10,283 nucleotides of DNA from Spirochaetaceae bacterium (GTDB taxonomy: Bacteria; Spirochaetota; Spirochaetia; SZUA-6; Bin103): NCBI GenBank assembly GCA_028820215.1, contig JAPPKD010000180.1:14126-24408 (forward strand). The letters are read 5' to 3'. Below are positions 752 to 10,283 of the stretch, piece by piece; positions within the stretch are counted from its first letter, which is position 1; every line of letters begins with the position of its first letter. Under the pieces are notes generated by a model. That model was not told the origin of the DNA, did not search any database, and saw only the letters and a list, made by a program, of their open reading frames with translations. The position numbers and the translations under genes were made by a program.

Positions 752-3371
752 TCATTCGAAGCCGATGCTCACGGGTCCGCAAAGGCCGCTCCTGGTGCAG
801 CCCTGCTCCAGGGCCAGGCACTGCTTGTGGTAGATGCCCAGGACGTTGTCCGGCCAGCGGTCGAGCTTCCTGGTATGCAGGAACTGGTTGGCCATCGTGT
901 TGGTGACGGTCACGCTCAGCGTGTTCGTGCCCGCCTTCGCCGCGCCATTCAGATCGAGGCGGAACGGCTCCCAAGCCCGCCGCCCCAGGGGGACGCCGTT
1001 CAGGACGACCTCCGCCACGCCCCACACCTGGCCCAGATCGAGCGTGGACGCGCGCGCCGCTTCCGGCCCGTCGAGCTCGAACGCCACCCGGTACTCCGCG
1101 TCACCGGTGAAGTCGTGGCCGACCGCGCCGCTCCAGTCGCCGAGCGCGATGGGGGAGGCTTCTTGGTGCACGTCCTGAACCTCGAACTCCTCGTCTCCGA
1201 TCCAAAACGCGCGCGTTCTCCGGCAGGTCCATCCTTCGTCGATGGGTATGCGGCTCTCGGGATGCGGCGAACGTGCCGGTTCCGACGGAATGTCGTCGTC
1301 CGTGAACAGGAACACGTACGACTCGGCGAAGCGCATGCGTAGCGGCACCGAGCACGTCCCGTCCACATGGGCCGCGTCCTCCGGCGTGCTGCACGTGCCC
1401 GTCTCCGGGTCGATCCGGATCACGGGGCGGTGGTCCTTGAAGAAGATCGTGGCGCCGGCCGGTACCGCCTCTTCCTTGCCGACGCCGGTGCCCTCGTTGG
1501 TCAGGAAGTAGAGGGTGCCATTCTCCAGGTCCCGCCTGCACACGCGCACGCCGGCATTCGCCGGGTGCACGTCGACCAGGGGTTCCACGTGGCGCGCGTC
1601 GAGCTCGTCCAGCTCGATCGAGGTGCTGCCTGCCGGGGCCTCGGACCCGTCGCCGTTGTCCACCCAGTACACCCTGCCGCCGGCGGCGATGAAGCGGTCG
1701 AGCTTCTCCCGCGAGCCGCCGCTCATGTGCCTGGTTCGGGACACGTACACGGTGTCGTACCGCATCGGCCCGGCCTGTATGCAACCGTCGCGGACGATCG
1801 TCGCCTCGTCCTCCAGCAGGTCGTCGTCGATCATGTCGAAGTCGCACTGGTGCGCAAGCAGCGTGCGCGCGAGCATGTCGTTCGACCCGGCTACCCGGTC
1901 GAGCTCGGCGCCGCCCGCCCAAATGTCCCGCACCGGGAAGTAGAGGGCGGCGCGGATCGCCGGCCTGCCCAGGCTCAGCAGGTAGCTCAGCCGTGCCGTG
2001 TACGCGTGGTAGAGGTCCATGTGGCGGAACAGCGGGTTCTCGCGCACGAACATCGGGCGGATGGAGCCCATGTAATGGCCCTTCGTCGACAGGAGCGCCT
2101 GGCCGGAGATGAGCAGGTTGATGCCGCGCACGAACTGGAAGTCGGTGATCCACTTCATCTCCTCCAGGGTCAGCGCGCAGCCGTACGCCGAGAACGACTC
2201 CGTCCACGACCACGGCGTGCCGCGCTGATGCGCGACCGAGGACGCGTACTTCGGAAAGTGGTGGTTGTCCGCGACCGGCAGCGAGCCCTCGGTGTCGTCC
2301 CAGTGGACAGGCAGGACCGCTTTCCTGCCGGGATGGAGCTGCTTCCAGATGGTGTCCACGCCGGGGATGTCGTACTTCCTGAGGACGCGCATCACGTGGC
2401 CGAACCCGTACTTGCGCGAGCCGATGGTGAGATCCTCGCCGCCCAGGTGGCCGATCGACCACAGGCCGTTCCGGGCAGACCACTCCTGGATCTGTCCGAA
2501 GAACGCCTCCGCGAATCTCCTCGACCACCAGTCGAAGTAGTCGATGCGGACCTGGGCCGTCGCCTCGTCGTCCCGGAAGATCGCCGGCAGGACGTCCCGG
2601 ATGTCGTAGCCCTTCTGGGCCTGAAAACGCGTCCGCCAGGTCGCCGGTCCAGGGCGGATTGTCCACGCGCGGCTCGTCGGAGACGACCAGCGGGATCGTG
2701 TCCCCGAAGTGCCGGCCCAGCGCCCGCTTGTACGCCTCGTGGCTGCCGGCGATGAACGTCTTGGTGACCTCCGGGTTCAGCAGGTCCGGGTAGGAGGGGA
2801 CGAGGGCTGTCTCGTGCCCGAGCCGGGCGAGATACAGCTCCGCTCCGTGCCCGGCGTCGAGTCGCTCCCCGGGGCCGAGGCGTCTGCCGCCGCCGTTCCC
2901 GCCGGGCTGGAAGGCCGCGATGCAGTCGTCGGGTACCCGGTCGAGCTCGCCCGGCGCGATGTCCCGCTTCGCCAGCGTCTGACGAGCCCACGCCGGGTGC
3001 TCCCGGACGATGCGCCCGCAGTTGCCGCCGGAAGGCCATCCGCCCTCGTCGTACAGCCAGAGCTTCATGCCCCGGCGCCGCATCTCCACGACCAGGTCGT
3101 CGAGGATCGCCAGGTACTCCTCCGACAGGTACTCGGGCTGCAGGTTGGTCTTCATGGAGTTCGGCCTGAAGTCCGCCGGAACCGGAAGGATCCAGATGTT
3201 CTTCGCACCTACGGAGTCCATGTCCCGGAGCTGCCGGAACAGCGCTTCCCGTTCCAGGACATCGTTCCAGAACCAGAACAAGCCCGGCCAGTGGATGGCG
3301 TCCGGGTCAGCGAGCACTTCGACGTCGAAGCGGGTCATCTCAGTCAGGTCGCGCACGCTGATCGTCTTCAT
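752..3371 (-). CDS. GH106/GH2-like glycoside hydrolase, interrupted by a one-base frameshift
   Basis: Two overlapping frames join into one 872-residue protein if one T of the TTTT run at 2627-2624 is removed. Residues 1-249 are read before the shift and 250-872 after it. The N-terminal part has a TIM-barrel-like pattern: GLFWFWND (30-37), GAKNIWILPVP (55-65), then KLWLYDEGGWPSGG (103-116), and VVSDEPR (229-235). SIGHLGGEDL (305-314) lies just after the shift. Glu233 and Glu311 are possible acid/base residues, by inference only. The C-terminal ~150 residues form a GH2/galactose-binding-type beta-sandwich (LDLGQVWGVAEVVLNGVPLG, then NTLSVTVTNTMANQFL). This architecture resembles GH106-like alpha-L-rhamnosidases and related unclassified plant- or algal-glycan hydrolases. 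The substrate is unknown. No signal peptide is evident. The ATG at 3371 has a GGAG seven bases upstream. An alternative ATG at 3338 lies just after the upstream gene's stop codon. Confidence 0.8.
2624..2627 (-). other. Frameshift site in the glycoside hydrolase (A4 run on +, T4 on -)
   Basis: Upstream of this run the protein is coherent in one frame, ending ...TGDLADAF. Downstream the same frame turns into Arg/Pro/Gly-rich nonsense. The frame one base away reads on sensibly as QAQKGYDIRDVLPAIF and onward to the stop at 752. Deleting one base of the homopolymer restores the whole gene. A homopolymer indel is either a sequencing error or a recent inactivating mutation. Confidence 0.85.
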
Positions 3372-4788
3372 TGAACGTCTCCAGGGCCTGCCGGCCGGGC
3401 TTCGTCGTCCGGTACTTCTGTCGGCGGCTGGTAGGCTTGTCCGGGACGGTCATTTCCAGCCAGCCGGCCTTGAGCAAGGGTTTCAGGACCTGATTCCGGA
3501 ACTTGGTGCGGTCCTGCCTCCCCGTGTGTGCCATCAGTTCCAATATCGACTTGTCAGAAAGGCAGTTACGCAAGATCGAGACTTGGTGCCGACTTGGTGC
3601 CGACTTGGTGCCGGCTTCCGTCTCGATCTGCCCGTCTCCTGGCTCCGTCGTCACTGACGCAGACCGCGCACCGGCCGGGGTCATCGGCCGTTTGAAGGTC
3701 GTCGTGACCCAGTGCTCGGAGACCTCGATCAGCGGCTCCGCGACGCCGTAGCCGCGGCACTCCTGTCGAATGCGTCGAATCCCGCTGCCGATCTGCTCGA
3801 CCATGCCCATGCGGTGGAACATCCCGAACAGCAGGCGATTGCGCGGTACGCTCTTGATCCCCAGGTCTTCCTCGCGCATCCCCGCGGGCAACCCGCCCGG
3901 CGTCACGATCTCCAAGCGGTCGTGGAATATGTACATCTGCACGTTGGCGGTCGACCGATAGTCCCGGTGTGCGATGGCATTCACCAGCGCCTCGCGAATC
4001 GCGTCCTCGGGAAGCTCCAGGCGCTCATCTCTGCCGTGGACGTGCGGGATCAACGCCGTGTTCAGTTTGGCCTGGGCGTAGGCGATGCACTCCTCGTAGA
4101 TGGAGTAGAGGTCACCCGTGAAGTTCTTGAGGTCGAGGATGTGGGTCTTGGTCACGCCCCGCAGCAGAGCGCACGTCACCGCGGCCTGCAGGCTGTACTT
4201 GGTGACGTCCTCTGCCAGCAGCCATGCGCCGGCCTGCGTCATCTGCCCGTCCCTGAAGAGATGCAGATTCTCCAGTGCGATCAGCGGCTCCAGGTCGTCG
4301 GGGATGCGAGCGCGCGCGGCGAAGCGCGACCATGCTTCCGGCGTCAGATCGCGCTGCAGATCGAAGCGCGGGCAGGGCGTCTCGTCGAAGCGGATGAGTC
4401 CTTCCTTGTAGAAGGACTCGCGGATCTCGTCGCGGGACATCTGCTGGCAGTTCGCGCCTTCACGGACGTAGAACCTGCCTCTGAAGGAGTAGGGCTTGCC
4501 ATGCTGCTCCGGCACCGTCACGACCAGTACGTCGTCGACCGACTCCACTTCGACCGCGATCGGCGGATCTGCGGAGCGCGCGGTGGTCTGAACCTGCGAC
4601 TTCAGCCTGTTGTGGTTCTCGACGCCGACAGCATCGCCTTCGTCGGTGACGCCGATGAGGATCACCCCACCTGTGGCGTTTGCGAACGCGCAGACTTCGG
4701 CACCAAGGTTGGAAGGCACCGAGCGCTTGAACTCGGTGGTGAATCCCTCGCCGAGCGCCGTCAGATGGGCGAGCCTGGTCTCACTCAT
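3340..4788 (-). CDS. AlbA_2 (Schlafen-like) / HATPase ATP-binding protein, putative transcriptional regulator
   Basis: From the ATG at 4788 this is 482 residues. The frame is open back to 4917, but MSETRLAHLTALGEGFTTEF is the usual family beginning. Residues ~12-125 are an AlbA_2 domain (PF04326): EGFTTEFKRS, then FANATGGVILIGVTDEG, GRFYVREGANCQQMSRDEI. Residues ~255-370 form a GHKL-type HATPase_c_4 module: LPEDAIREALVNAIAHRDY, IVTPGGLPAG, RNRLLFGMFHRMGMVEQIGS. The last ~75 residues (LSDKSILELMAHTGRQDRTK, then LLKAGWLEMTVPDKPTSRRQ) look like a winged helix. Proteins of this architecture are common in mobile or accessory regions and are annotated as ATP-dependent DNA-binding regulators. The true role is seldom known. 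The linker contains three exact 11-bp tandem repeats (3580-3612). The 3' end overlaps the glycoside hydrolase start by 32 nt, so the two are probably co-transcribed. Confidence 0.85.
   Translation of the reverse strand: MSETRLAHLTALGEGFTTEFKRSVPSNLGAEVCAFANATGGVILIGVTDEGDAVGVENHNRLKSQVQTTARSADPPIAVEVESVDDVLVVTVPEQHGKPYSFRGRFYVREGANCQQMSRDEIRESFYKEGLIRFDETPCPRFDLQRDLTPEAWSRFAARARIPDDLEPLIALENLHLFRDGQMTQAGAWLLAEDVTKYSLQAAVTCALLRGVTKTHILDLKNFTGDLYSIYEECIAYAQAKLNTALIPHVHGRDERLELPEDAIREALVNAIAHRDYRSTANVQMYIFHDRLEIVTPGGLPAGMREEDLGIKSVPRNRLLFGMFHRMGMVEQIGSGIRRIRQECRGYGVAEPLIEVSEHWVTTTFKRPMTPAGARSASVTTEPGDGQIETEAGTKSAPSRHQVSILRNCLSDKSILELMAHTGRQDRTKFRNQVLKPLLKAGWLEMTVPDKPTSRRQKYRTTKPGRQALETFNEDDQRARPD
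3379..3382 (-). promoter_or_regulatory. Ribosome binding site for the glycoside hydrolase
   Basis: GGAG on the minus strand lies seven bases before the ATG at 3371, inside the 3' end of the upstream gene. It favours the 3371 start over the ATG at 3338, which lacks such a motif. Confidence 0.5.
3580..3612 (+). repeat. 11-bp tandem repeat, three exact copies, in a coding linker
   Basis: GACTTGGTGCC occurs three times head to tail (3580-3590, 3591-3601, 3602-3612). On the coding (minus) strand it is GGCACCAAGTC x3. Because 11 is not a multiple of three, the copies are read in three successive frames and encode the 11-residue string GTKSAPSRHQV. Three copies restore the frame. The unit lies between the ATPase module and the C-terminal winged-helix-like region. 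Confidence 0.95.
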
Positions 4789-4834
4789 GTCGATCAACAA
4801 TCGCGAGTGCCCATTGGGCGTCATGAGAGGGCGT

Positions 4835-4899
4835 TCTCGCAAGCCGTGGAGTCGAGCGATCACAGCTCTATCCGAGTTTCGGGCAGTCCTCTTGCGAGA
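4835..4899. repeat. 9-bp inverted repeat in the divergent intergenic region
   Basis: TCTCGCAAG at 4835-4843 and its exact complement CTTGCGAGA at 4891-4899 lie 47 bp apart, between the divergent starts of the ATP-binding protein gene and cobQ. Such a pair could be an operator for either promoter. It could also be chance, since no -10/-35 pair is convincing here. Confidence 0.35.
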
Positions 4900-4949
4900 G
4901 GGTGACGGAAGCCTCATCTTGGCCCCGGATCGTCATGCAGAAGAACGAA

Positions 4950-6428
4950 ATGGGCGTGCGGGCGCTGATGATCCAAGGGACGGCGTCCGACGCGGGGAAG
5001 TCGGTGGTGGTCGCGGGGCTGTGCCGGGCGGCCAAGCGCCGAGGCGTGCGCGTGGCTCCGTTCAAGCCGCAGAACATGTCGAACAACGCCGCGGCCTGCG
5101 CGGACGGGGGCGAGATCGGGCGGGCGCAGGCGGTGCAGGCGCGGGCGGCCGGGCTTGCGCCTCGGACGGACTTCAATCCGGTGCTGCTGAAGCCGCAGAC
5201 CGACCGGGGCTCGCAGGTGGTCGTGCACGGCCGGCCGGTGGGGATGCTGCATGCGTCGGACTACCGGGCGGGGCGTGCCCGGCTGATGGACGCGGTCATG
5301 GAGAGCTTCGGGCGGCTGGTGGCCGAGTTCGATCTGGTGATCGTGGAGGGGGCCGGCAGCCCTGCGGAGGTCAACCTGCGCGCCGGGGACATCGCCAACA
5401 TGGGGTTCGCGCGGCGGGCGGAGGTGCCGGTCTGCTTGGTCGGGGACATCGACCGCGGCGGTGTGATCGCGGCGGTGGTGGGGACCGGGGCGGTGCTGGA
5501 CGCCGAGGATCGGGCGCTGATCGCGGGGTTCCTGATCAACAAGCTGCGCGGCGACCCGGCGCTGTTCGAGGACGGCGTGCGCATCATCGAGCGGCACACC
5601 GGCTGGCCCTGCTTCGGGGTGATTCCCTGGGAGCCGGCGGCGCTGCGCCTGCCGGCCGAGGACGCCGCATCACTGCCGCCGGCCGGCGACTCGCGGGGCG
5701 GGCGGGTGAAGGTCGCCGCGCCGGTGCTGTCGCGCCTGGCGAACTACGACGACGCCGATCCGCTGCGCCTGGAGCCGGACGTGGAGTTCGCGTTCGTGCC
5801 GGCCGGCCGGCCGATCCCGCGCGACGCCGACGTGGTGCTGCTGTTCGGCACCAAGTCGACGATCGGCGACCTGGCGTTCCTGCGGGAGCAGGGGTGGGAC
5901 CATGACATCCTGGCGCACGCGCGGGCCGGCGGGCGCGTGGTGGGCGTGTGCGGGGGGCTGCAGATGCTGGGCCGGCGCGTGCACGATCCGGCGGGGGCGG
6001 ACGGGCCGGCCGGGTCGGCCGACGGGCTGGGGCTGCTCGACGTGGAGACCACCATGCACGCCGAGAAGACCGTCCGCCCGGCGCGGGGGCGATGCGCGCT
6101 GAGCGATGCTCCGGTGGCGGGCTACGAGATCCACACGGGACGCTCGGCCGGCGCGGATCAGGCGCGGCCGATGTTCCGCCTGGAGACGGGCGCTGACGGC
6201 GCGCGCAGCGCGGACGGACTGGTCGAGGGGACCTACCTGCACGGGCTATTCGCGAACGACGCGTATCGGCGCGCGTGGCTGGAGCGCGTCGGGGCGGGCG
6301 CGGACTCATCCCTGCAGTACGAGGCGGCCGTGGACGCGGCCCTGGACGCGGTGGCGGACACGTTGTCCGTGACAATCGACCTGGACGCGCTGTTCGGGGC
6401 GGCCCGCCGGCCAACTGTCGCGGAGTGA
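4950..6428 (+). CDS. cobQ: Cobyric acid synthase CobQ/CbiP
   Basis: CobQ catalyses the glutamine- and ATP-dependent amidation of the b, d, e and g carboxyl groups of adenosylcobyrinic acid a,c-diamide to give cobyric acid, in the cytoplasm. The protein from the ATG at 4950 is 492 residues, the normal family length. It starts [18 protein letters not shown] (P-loop-like synthetase motif, residues ~10-18), followed by [10 protein letters not shown] and the [12 protein letters not shown] motif (~132-143). The C-terminal half is the class I glutamine amidotransferase domain, with nucleophile Cys334 in [12 protein letters not shown] and His431 in GTYLHGLF. Earlier in-frame starts exist at 4902 (GTG) and 4935 (ATG). 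I chose 4950 because it fits the family N-terminus and has a weak AGAAG upstream. The gene is divergent from the ATP-binding regulator and convergent with the remaining cob genes. No cobalamin riboswitch is visible upstream. Confidence 0.97.
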
Positions 6429-7765: not shown

Positions 7766-8332
7766 CTACCGGCCCAACTGAGTGAGCGGCTGCGCGTTCA
7801 GGGCGTTCAGCTCCAGGGCCAGCCCGGCGACGATGAGGTAGACGCGGCCGGCGCGGGCGGCGGCGAGCTGGTTCACGCGGCCGAGCGCGTCGCGGTACGC
7901 GCGTCCGAGCGGCGACGGGGGCACAACGCCCAGGCCGACCTCGTTGCTGATTACGATCCAGGTCGCCGTGGAGCGCTCGATCAGGGCGAGCAGCCCGCCG
8001 GCGGCGTCGAGGATCAGCTCCTCGGCGCCGGGGTCGTCCTCATGCCGGAGCAGCAGGTTGCTGACCCACAGGGTGAGGCAATCGAGCACCACCGTGTCGT
8101 AGCGGCTCAGGATCGGCGCGGCCTTCCCGGCCGGGTCGAGCGGCTCCTCCAGGGTGTCCCACCCGCTCGGCCGGCGCTCGCGGTGGGCGGCGATGCGGCG
8201 GGCCATGTCCTCATCCAGTGCCTCTGCCGTGGCGATGAACAGCACGCGGCGGCCCGCCTGCGCGAGCCGTTCCGCGGCGGCGCTCTTGCCGGAGCGGGCG
8301 CCGCCGAGCAGCAGGATGAGCTCGCCGCTCAT
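7766..8332 (-). CDS. cobU: Adenosylcobinamide kinase / adenosylcobinamide-phosphate guanylyltransferase CobU
   Basis: The bifunctional CobU phosphorylates adenosylcobinamide and then transfers GMP to it, giving adenosylcobinamide-GDP for CobS. The protein has 188 residues (family about 180). The P-loop GGARSGKS is at 10-17. His50 in RRIAAHRERRPSGWDTLEEP matches the guanylylated histidine of Salmonella CobU (His46). Next come VVLDCLTLWVSNLL and the signature VISNEVGLGVVPPSPLGRAYR with GRVNQ. The ATG overlaps the cobC stop by four bases (ATGA, 8329-8332), so translation is probably coupled. It is the last gene of the minus-strand cob train and ends 189 nt from the converging membrane-protein gene. 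Confidence 0.96.
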   Translation of the reverse strand: MSGELILLLGGARSGKSAAAERLAQAGRRVLFIATAEALDEDMARRIAAHRERRPSGWDTLEEPLDPAGKAAPILSRYDTVVLDCLTLWVSNLLLRHEDDPGAEELILDAAGGLLALIERSTATWIVISNEVGLGVVPPSPLGRAYRDALGRVNQLAAARAGRVYLIVAGLALELNALNAQPLTQLGR

Positions 8333-8952
8333 GGCGCGGTTCCGAGGTGCGCGGTGTCGTTCAGCAGTTTGAGCGCCGCGGAGCCGTCGTCGTAGACGGT
8401 GACGGCGGACAGACCGCAGTTGTCGAACAGGAAGCGCTCCATGCTTCCGGACGGCAGTCCCAGCAGGCGGACGATCGCCGCGGACAGCGATCCGCCGTGC
8501 GCGATCACCAGCAGGTCACCGTCGTCGCCGCCGTGGCGCTCCAGCAGGCCGTCCACGCCGGCCGCGACCCGCTCGTACAGTTGCCGCTCGCTCTCGCCTC
8601 CCGGAGTCGCGGCGGTGTCGTCGCCGGTGAACAGCGTCGCATAGCGCTCCGGGTCGCGCGCCTCCATCTCGGTGAAGATCATGCCTTCCCATTCGCCGAA
8701 GCCCCGCTCCCGCAGCGCGGGCAGGGTGACGAGCGACACGTCCCGGCCGCGCATGATCGGCTCCGCGGTTTGCGTGACGCGGCGCAGGTCGCTCGCGTAC
8801 ACGGCCGTGAAGGGCATCGGCCGCAGGCGCGCGGCGATCGCCTCTGCCTGCGCCAGTCCCTTGTCGTTGAGCGGCACGTGCAGTTGGCCCTGCGCGCGGC
8901 CCTCCACGTTCCAGTCCGTTTCGCCGTGCCGTACCAGAAACCATCTACCCAT
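8329..8952 (-). CDS. cobC: Histidine phosphatase family protein, probable alpha-ribazole phosphatase CobC
   Basis: CobC removes the 5'-phosphate from alpha-ribazole phosphate or from adenosylcobalamin 5'-phosphate, at the end of nucleotide-loop assembly. The 207-residue protein shows the phosphoglycerate-mutase-like fold signature LVRHGETDWN (6-15, phospho-accepting His9), SDLRRVTQTAEP (54-65), acid Glu82 in LRERGFGEWEG, and the second histidine in VIAHGGSL (His152). The sequence alone cannot separate CobC from other phosphatases of this superfamily. Its place between cbiB and cobU, with four-base overlap to cobU, makes the cobalamin role likely. Its start codon lies inside the 3' end of the cobD relic (8-base overlap). 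An AGGAGG at ~8967-8972 is rather far (14 nt) from the ATG. Confidence 0.9.
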   Translation of the reverse strand: MGRWFLVRHGETDWNVEGRAQGQLHVPLNDKGLAQAEAIAARLRPMPFTAVYASDLRRVTQTAEPIMRGRDVSLVTLPALRERGFGEWEGMIFTEMEARDPERYATLFTGDDTAATPGGESERQLYERVAAGVDGLLERHGGDDGDLLVIAHGGSLSAAIVRLLGLPSGSMERFLFDNCGLSAVTVYDDGSAALKLLNDTAHLGTAP

Positions 8953-9139
8953 CGCTCTTCGCCATAGCCTCCTGCATCGCGCCGGCCCGCCGCCGGCAGT
9001 CCTTCAAGCGCCGGACGCCGATGCGCACATGCTCCGGCAGCCCGAACGACGCGCAGTCTCGCACACACACGCGGTGCTCCCGGAGCAGCCGTGCACGGGC
9101 CGGGAAGGTTCCACCGCGCAGTACCAGGTTCTCCCCAGG
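8945..9139 (-). pseudogene. cobD: 3' remnant of cobD (L-threonine-O-3-phosphate decarboxylase)
   Basis: Directly after the cbiB stop (TAG, 9142-9140), and in the same frame, 64 codons read PGENLVLRGGTFPARARLLR, then EHRVCVRDCASFGLPEHVRI, then GVRRLKDCRRRAGAMQEAM, up to TAG at 8947-8945. This matches the C-terminal end of CobD/HisC-type PLP-dependent aminotransferase-fold enzymes ('LL..H.v.vRDC.sFgLp.yvRi.vR...eN..l...l'). CobD makes (R)-1-amino-2-propanol O-2-phosphate for CbiB. The PLP-binding lysine and about 80% of the ~360-residue enzyme are missing, and no start codon with an RBS precedes the fragment. The remnant still overlaps the cobC start by eight bases, as an intact cobD would. I infer deletion of the 5' part of cobD between cbiB and cobC. 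(CobD here is the Salmonella naming.). Confidence 0.75.
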
Positions 9140-10105
9140 CTATCCCCAGATCAGTCCACGGACGGCGGCCACGGTGATGGCCGCCGGCGCCGCGAGCAGG
9201 GCGACGCTGTATACCAGCCGCGCGGCGGCGCCCACGTCGTACCAGAACGGGTCACGGAAGCCGTCGCCGATGCGGTAGTGGCAGGTCTTTTCCAGGGCGA
9301 CGCCGAGGAGGCCGGCGCAGGCGGCGATCGTCCAGCCGGCGTTGGGGCTGGCCGTGCGTCCGTGGTCCCGCCGGGCGATCTCCCAGCCGCGGCGTGCGGG
9401 CAGGCGGTGGAGCGCTCCGGCGGCCAGCATCAGCAGCGCGGCGAGGCGCGCCGGCAGCAGGTTGACCAGGTCGTCCAGCCTGGCCGATGCCTTGCCCAGG
9501 TGCTCGTAACGGCCGCGATAGCCGATCATGCTGTCCAGCGTGTTCACGGCCCGGTAGGCCACGGCGCCCGGCAGGCCGAACAGCGCGAACGCCAGCCAGG
9601 GAGCGACGTAGCTGTCGGTCGTGTTCTCGGCGGCTGACTCGATCGCGGCCATCGCGACCTGCGGGCCGGTGAGAGAGCGCGCATCGCGGCTCACGAGGCT
9701 CCGCAGACTGTCGCGCGCGCGATCGAGGTCCCCGCTCTGCAGGGCGTCCCGGGCGCCGGCCACGGCGCGGCTGAGCCCCTTTACCGCGAACGTGGTCTTC
9801 AACAGGGCCGCCGTTCCCAGCAGGTAGGGGAGGGGCCCGGCCGCGCGCAGTGCGGTCGCCGCGAGCCATGCCAGCGCGCCGCAGCCGGCCGGCACCAGCA
9901 CGGCTATCGCGAGCCCGGCAGCCAGCGACGCCGCGGGCCGGTCCGCCGGCGGAGAACGGCGCTCCAGGAACCCGATCAGTCTGCCCATCCACACGACGGG
10001 ATGGAGCGCCGCAGGCGGCTCCCGCAACGCCAGGTCGAGCGCCACAGCCAGCAGCAGCGCGCCGGCATCCAGGCCCCACTCGCCTGGCCATGGGGACAGC
10101 GCCAT
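9140..10105 (-). CDS. cbiB: Adenosylcobinamide-phosphate synthase CbiB (CobD in Pseudomonas naming)
   Basis: CbiB is the integral membrane enzyme that joins aminopropanol (phosphate) to adenosylcobyric acid. The protein has 321 residues, normal for the family. Key motifs are HPVVWMGRLIGFLER (35-49), LLKTTFAVKGLSRA (101-114), AMAAIESAAENTTDSYVAPW (151-170), YRAVNTLDSMIGYRGRYEHL (184-203) and the LDDLVNLLPARL block (210-221). Several hydrophobic stretches (about 15-30, 60-85, 170-185, 220-235 and the C-terminal LVYSVALLAAPAAITVAAV) are membrane segments. The start at 10105 lies six bases after the cobS stop, so the two are in one operon. The end is followed in the same frame by the cobD remnant. 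Everything in the sequence suggests CbiB itself is intact. Confidence 0.96.
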   Translation of the reverse strand: MALSPWPGEWGLDAGALLLAVALDLALREPPAALHPVVWMGRLIGFLERRSPPADRPAASLAAGLAIAVLVPAGCGALAWLAATALRAAGPLPYLLGTAALLKTTFAVKGLSRAVAGARDALQSGDLDRARDSLRSLVSRDARSLTGPQVAMAAIESAAENTTDSYVAPWLAFALFGLPGAVAYRAVNTLDSMIGYRGRYEHLGKASARLDDLVNLLPARLAALLMLAAGALHRLPARRGWEIARRDHGRTASPNAGWTIAACAGLLGVALEKTCHYRIGDGFRDPFWYDVGAAARLVYSVALLAAPAAITVAAVRGLIWG

Positions 10106-10111
10106 CCCGAT

Positions 10112-10283
10112 CTACCCCGCGAGCACGAGCACGGCGAGTCCCAGTACGGCCACCTCGGAGATCTCGTTCACCGCGCCGTATATGTCCCCAGTCACCCCGC
10201 CGAGCAGCCGGGTCGCCCACGCGCCGACGGCCCACGCGACCGCGGCGGCCAGCGCCGCGAGCGCCAGCCCCGGCAGCCCGGTC
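10112..10283 (-). CDS. cobS: Adenosylcobinamide-GDP ribazoletransferase CobS (partial, only the C-terminus)
   Basis: Only the last 56 codons are inside the window; the 5' end lies beyond the right edge. The frame reads hydrophobic Ala/Leu-rich sequence, then RLLGGVTGDIYGAVNEISEV and a final membrane segment AVLGLAVLVLAG. GGxTGDxYGAxNE near the C-terminus is the CobS (PF02654) signature. CobS, a membrane protein, condenses adenosylcobinamide-GDP with alpha-ribazole (phosphate) to give adenosylcobalamin (phosphate). The stop at 10112 is six bases before the cbiB start, so it is the upstream gene of the minus-strand cob operon. Confidence 0.92.
   Translation of the reverse strand, partial: TGLPGLALAALAAAVAWAVGAWATRLLGGVTGDIYGAVNEISEVAVLGLAVLVLAG

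Follow-up and report, generated by a model that had tools for sequence, protein, structure and literature searches.

A probable cobD pseudogene between cbiB and cobC in a Spirochaetaceae bacterium, and recurrent cobD lesions among its relatives

The cobalamin gene cluster and the remains of cobD

The analysed window, a stretch of 10,283 nucleotides from a Spirochaetaceae bacterium, carries a cobalamin gene cluster that on the minus strand runs from the end of cobS through cbiB, a gap of 187 nt and cobC to cobU (Table 1). A preliminary description of this DNA had noted that cbiB, cobC and cobU look intact, and all three are indeed whole frames with matches to the expected families; the cobS end likewise matches CobS. 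The cobQ gene lies beyond cobU on the opposite strand; in two related loci (L001 and L026) cobQ sits between cobD and cobC, and in P0142, within the clade of the window, cobC directly follows cobD. Search of the whole window against Rfam at the gathering score returned no family and thus no cobalamin riboswitch. Divergently from cobQ, the window encodes a protein of Schlafen AlbA_2 type whose C-terminal domain is RecG-like (3340-4917, minus strand). The same strand carries a glycoside hydrolase-like gene (752-3371; PF17132, E 6.9e-10, in the 3' part) with one frame switch at about 2620, apparently a frameshift, which means either that another gene of the window is damaged or that an indel error occurred, and a gene for an Rpn-type nuclease/putative transposase (2-643; PF04754, E 4.8e-43) that enters the GC-rich, low-complexity end of the window.

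Table 1. Cobalamin genes and cobD remnants in the window
Feature	Position	Strand	Evidence or remark
cobS, 3' end	10112..10282	-	PF02654 E 1.1e-8, TIGR00317 E 1.1e-9; runs past window edge
cbiB, 321 aa, whole frame	9140..10105	-	PF03186 E 4e-83; TIGR00380 233 bits (cut-off 165.9, exceeded)
cbiB stop TAG	9142-9140	-	
cobD 5' remnant: GTG (likely start) and nine codons, VEPSRPVHG	9088..9114	-	17-18/21 residues match P0122, P0126, P0127
Predicted product from the remaining GTG, 36 residues	9004..9114	-	translation; stop 9006-9004
CGGC common to both cobD ends, inferred deletion junction	9088..9091	-	
cobD 3' remnant: last 47 codons (LLREH...SDG) and stop	8945..9088	-	stop 8947-8945 overlaps cobC start
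cobC start ATG	8952	-	
cobC, 207 aa, whole frame	8329..8952	-	PF00300 E 2.1e-59; TIGR03162 131 bits (below cut-off 162.9)
cobU, 188 aa, whole frame	7766..8332	-	PF02283 E 1.5e-54; NF004469 178 bits (cut-off 161, exceeded)
cobQ (cobyric acid synthase), whole frame	4902..6428	+	NF001989 614 bits (cut-off 273, exceeded)

The stop codon of cbiB is followed, in frame, by an open stretch of 64 codons (9139-8948, minus strand, stop at 8947-8945) that had been taken for the C-terminal end of CobD. The proposed similarity of this fragment to CobD/HisC enzymes holds, with profile scores that are low: the fragment alone matches no Pfam family, its NCBIfam matches (PRK08354, E 1.3e-5, 24.8 bits; TIGR01140, E 0.033, 13.3 bits) are far below the cut-offs, and the PDB search retrieved 3p1t (E 1.5e-4). 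Among CobD proteins encoded at the equivalent operon place, the best match is that of L004 (E 2.6e-17, 59% over 58 residues), and the nine best proteins overall share 72-75% identity with the fragment over 94% of its length. The whole relative P0123 has Salmonella CobD (1lc5, 8.4e-42) as its best PDB match and TIGR01140 as its best NCBIfam model, with 263 bits; the cut-off of this model, 290.55 bits, is missed even by intact CobD relatives. Given these matches of P0123 and the place beside cbiB, we identify the lost gene, by sequence comparison, as cobD.

The relic consists of more than a C-terminus. Only the last 47 of the 64 codons, which include the C-terminal CobD segment RDCASFGLPEHVRIGVR, belong to CobD, and the first 16, PGENLVLRGGTFPARA, are the 5' end of cobD in the wrong frame. 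In the neighbouring frame this end reads SGDSLGRTWYCAVEPSRPVHG, in agreement with P0122 and P0126 at 18 of 21 residues each and with P0127 at 17 of 21; the cobD of P0122 and P0126 begins MDCSGDSLGTTWYYAVEPVRPVHGGLN, and the matching sequence extends upstream into the end of cbiB. A start codon, which had been considered missing, is therefore likely present as the GTG at 9114. Since this start and nine codons remain, we rejected the idea that cobD had lost its 5' end; we likewise rejected a working mini-protein encoded by the 64-codon frame, as codons 1-16 of that frame are the beginning of cobD read out of frame. Both ends of the gene are thus present and collinear at the ancestral place, and the reading frame is broken: the nine and the 47 codons lie in different frames, so that this locus, which has no full-length CobD frame (about 330-366 residues), cannot yield an L-threonine-O-3-phosphate decarboxylase. 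By arithmetic against P0123, the missing middle is estimated at about 910 nt, that is, 303 codons and one base. It includes, as the preliminary description had it, the region of the catalytic lysine, which left no trace in either remnant and is present in P0123 and other relatives, where the lysine of the SMTKD motif is the one we take to bind PLP. Taken together, these features make it probable that the window cobD is a pseudogene that arose by an internal, out-of-frame deletion while the neighbouring genes stayed whole.

The 3' remnant itself bears on this reading. Over the 43 comparable C-terminal residues, a short stretch, the window carries three changes at columns that are invariant in 20 other proteins, each of which has 0-2 such changes (for this comparison P0137 was set aside, as were those tails of P0142, P0146 and P0173 that are shifted in frame). 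The three changes fit a gene no longer under selection, within the limits of so short a stretch.

The genome might contain, at another place, an undamaged cobD or a further decarboxylase of the CobD/HisC type, with the locus studied here as the scar of a relocation. The wholeness of cbiB and cobQ, for which a linker is presumably still needed, speaks for such a gene, as does a survey (PMC6461909) according to which cobD annotation is absent in most verified cobamide producers, so that other sources seem common. In the 10-kb window, however, tblastn with eight CobD proteins (E up to 1) detected no further pieces of cobD: E values below 1e-10 were obtained only at 9139-8948, and all other matches were at 0.04 or weaker. 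We regard relocation as possible but somewhat doubtful.

The locus in relatives

To place the window among its relatives, 39 loci around a cbiB relative were compared, namely L001-L028, 24 of which carry the label Chloroflexi, Chloroflexota, Dehalococcoidia or SAR202, and 11 further loci. Judged by its nearest CbiB relatives, the window would itself come from Chloroflexota. The cobD gene adjoining cbiB is whole in 33 of the 39, including L014, where the flagged stop is the normal end of the gene; in the window, by contrast, cobD is probably dead within an otherwise intact stretch of the operon. The cbiB gene is in one frame in all 39 loci, which had been chosen by cbiB (38 whole, and L017 at a coverage of 0.89); L017 cbiB and L027 cobC had been flagged solely for coverage of 0.88-0.89. 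In the six loci where cobD is not whole, it is disrupted by frameshifts (L025 and L100) or a nonsense codon (L099), reduced to a relic (L010 and L021) or missing (L027).

Between cbiB and cobQ of L010 (4985-5125), there is only VATVHGGLDEAGLRSLG and, directly attached, what may be a CobD end, LLAQAPKEVMEHE; this C-terminal similarity is weak and covers few residues, and the relic may represent an independent internal loss of cobD with both ends kept. In L021, cbiB is followed, after position 2672, by a stub resembling the CobD N-terminus, GLNVVELRSLGLEQERG, and then by unrelated sequence; no match to cobC, cobU or cobQ was found at this locus. In L027 (10837-10997), part of a Dehalococcoidia chromosome, cobC follows cbiB with no cobD in between. 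When five genomes were searched with TIGR01140, none produced a match above the cut-off. Three of them have an operon cobD, which scores 261-278 bits, and their next match, presumably HisC, scores 184-203 bits. The maxima in the other two are 195 bits (L027, a contig of 2.75 Mb) and 199 bits (L010), so that no CobD is evident in either genome.

Damage is not confined to cobD. In L099 (2695-4175), cobQ has an in-frame internal deletion of 354 codons beside the cobD with the nonsense codon, and in L100 both cobD and cobQ contain shifts; hence, cobD is not the sole gene affected in these loci.

A contig scan of the best 80 of 573 relatives yielded no close relative with DNA, the best CbiB identity being 65%. 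Searches of whole genomes at set E limits, in sets that overlap, detected CbiB in 8/395, 8/138, 6/12, 0/299, 0/185 and 1/396 genomes, with a best identity of 66%; the sets of 299 and 185 held no known positive at those limits. No relative of the window was found among 131 stretches of viral contigs, and in 59 plasmid records identities of 60-80% extended over no more than 20% of the query. Pairing of CbiB with CobD clusters by the length of their contigs matched two pairs (P0015/P0139 and P0016/P0141) and was given up, as the contig figures may refer to cluster representatives alone.

Lesions of cobD in the clade

The CobD proteins nearest to the window fall into clade A, to which the window belongs (12 clusters; support 94/93), and its sister clade B (12 clusters; 100/99), the clusters being defined at 90% identity without strain weighting. 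Lesions are present in 8 of the 12 clusters of clade A (P0122, P0124, P0126, P0127, P0128, P0142, P0146 and P0173) and in a single cluster of clade B (P0139). Internal residues are missing from P0126 (53), P0127 (123) and P0128 (27); P0124 is cut off and scrambled; stretches shifted in frame occur in P0122, P0146 and P0173; and P0142 starts late and is carried into CobC by a frame shift. P0139 lacks 86 residues and is otherwise 99% identical to P0141. The segment NPNNPTG is missing from P0126 and P0127, and GNGATE from P0127 and P0139. P0123 and P0130 are whole members of clade A; P0125, which begins only at residue 27, and P0129, shorter by one codon, entered the count as unlesioned. No large internal deletion was seen in 100 outer CobD clusters, an absence biased by ranking because the list comprises the best 120 of 3420 proteins and damaged outer CobD would rank lower.

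For CbiB of clade A, in a count that leaves aside the window's own cluster P0002, 2 of 11 clusters are damaged (P0018 and P0094) and nine are full length. By Fisher's test, CobD of clade A differs from CobD of clade B (p 0.009) and from CbiB of clade A (p 0.036); when only lists of equal design are compared (5/9 CobD vs 2/11 CbiB), the difference is not significant (p 0.16). The excess of lesions in cobD over cbiB is therefore suggestive.

Part of this pattern might be technical, and the window itself could be a case in point: 0.9 kb of GC-rich DNA with short repeats may have been lost in library preparation or assembly although the cell itself has the full gene. Near-identical CobD proteins differ in their lesions, which means that the losses either are very recent or are partly sequencing or assembly errors; the single-base shifts of P0146 and P0173 resemble indel errors, and the frameshifts in two genes of L100, the 354-codon gap in L099 cobQ and the frameshift in the glycoside hydrolase gene of the window point the same way. 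Yet the changes at invariant columns of the 3' remnant would be unexpected if the gene were whole in the cell, and CobD is whole in 11 of the 12 clusters of sister clade B, as is CbiB in 9 of the 11 of clade A. The preliminary description had kept in view a loss of about 800 bp in assembly at 9140; about 910 nt are missing, between ends that meet at 9091-9088, and assembly error may explain part of the pattern. An artefact at the window locus appears to us unlikely.

Alternatively, the whole pathway might be in early decay, with cobamide synthesis no longer needed and cobD lost first by chance. The joint damage of cobD and cobQ in L099 and the two damaged CbiB clusters, P0018 and P0094, are compatible with such decay, but cbiB, cobC, cobU and cobQ are all whole in the window and most CbiB clusters of clade A are of full length, so we give this explanation limited credence. 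The best reading of the clade is recurrent, recent loss of cobD with cbiB kept.

Origin and possible meaning of the loss

A single deletion inside the gene, some 0.9 kb long and probably bounded by short CGGC repeats, would account for the cobD pseudogene; this microhomology is derived from the proteins of relatives, the ancestral DNA being unseen. The deletion is presumably real in the cell and recent, and the 3' end of cobD may persist because the start region of cobC lies within it. In the known pathway, CobD makes aminopropanol phosphate and CbiB joins it to cobyric acid, according to PMC7242693. That cbiB and cobQ are whole leaves two readings: the pathway may only have started to decay, or CbiB may still be in use, which would explain why its gene is kept, with aminopropanol phosphate or a comparable amine that a different enzyme or an external source provides. 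The cobyric acid steps would be missing from a cell confined to cobinamide salvage; cobQ and cbiB are both whole in the window, which argues against pure salvage because salvage would not need them. In Salmonella, aminopropanol feeding of cobD mutants is possible.

CbiB might also join ethanolamine phosphate, the cell then making norcobamides. Cobamides with an ethanolamine linker do exist (PMC6759758), but nothing in the window supports this linker, and the ethanolamine linker of Sulfurospirillum is attributed, in the account of PMC4585668, to SMUL_1544, a distant CobD homologue; with a CobD homologue at work even in the known route, the idea is weakened, and we consider it very improbable.

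Returning to the loss of cobD as such, one may speculate that a clade of uncultured bacteria, probably Chloroflexota, repeatedly loses CobD and keeps CbiB, obtaining aminopropanol phosphate or a different amine from another enzyme, a host or neighbouring microbes; in this full form the proposal is unlikely. If true, it would offer a natural experiment on why many cobamide producers have no recognisable cobD: a clade in which cobD is breaking and cbiB is mostly whole would make it possible to investigate what replaces CobD, be it an enzyme or an external supply. Should the lesions turn out to be assembly errors, they would caution against taking apparent losses of B12 genes in MAGs at face value. 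The pseudogene in the window is likely real and ordinary as a kind, and the part worth following is the repeated damage to cobD in the clade with cbiB mostly spared. A search of the literature, covering titles and the beginnings of abstracts, found no account of such cobD decay, which does not prove its absence from print.

Among the systems available for comparison, the relic of L010 (MAG IRC4_bin_30) comes close to that of the window, in that the start of cobD and its apparent end are joined and cbiB and the next gene are present; unlike the window, it is in frame (31 codons) and the next gene is cobQ. Internal loss with both ends kept also characterizes P0126, P0127, P0128 and P0139, whose losses, in contrast to that of the window, are in frame and smaller; in-frame losses are favoured among these four because they were found as proteins. 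Compared with the characterized CobD of Salmonella enterica (1lc5), the window remnants correspond to the two ends of such an enzyme, lacking about 303 codons, the catalytic lysine included, and with the frame broken.
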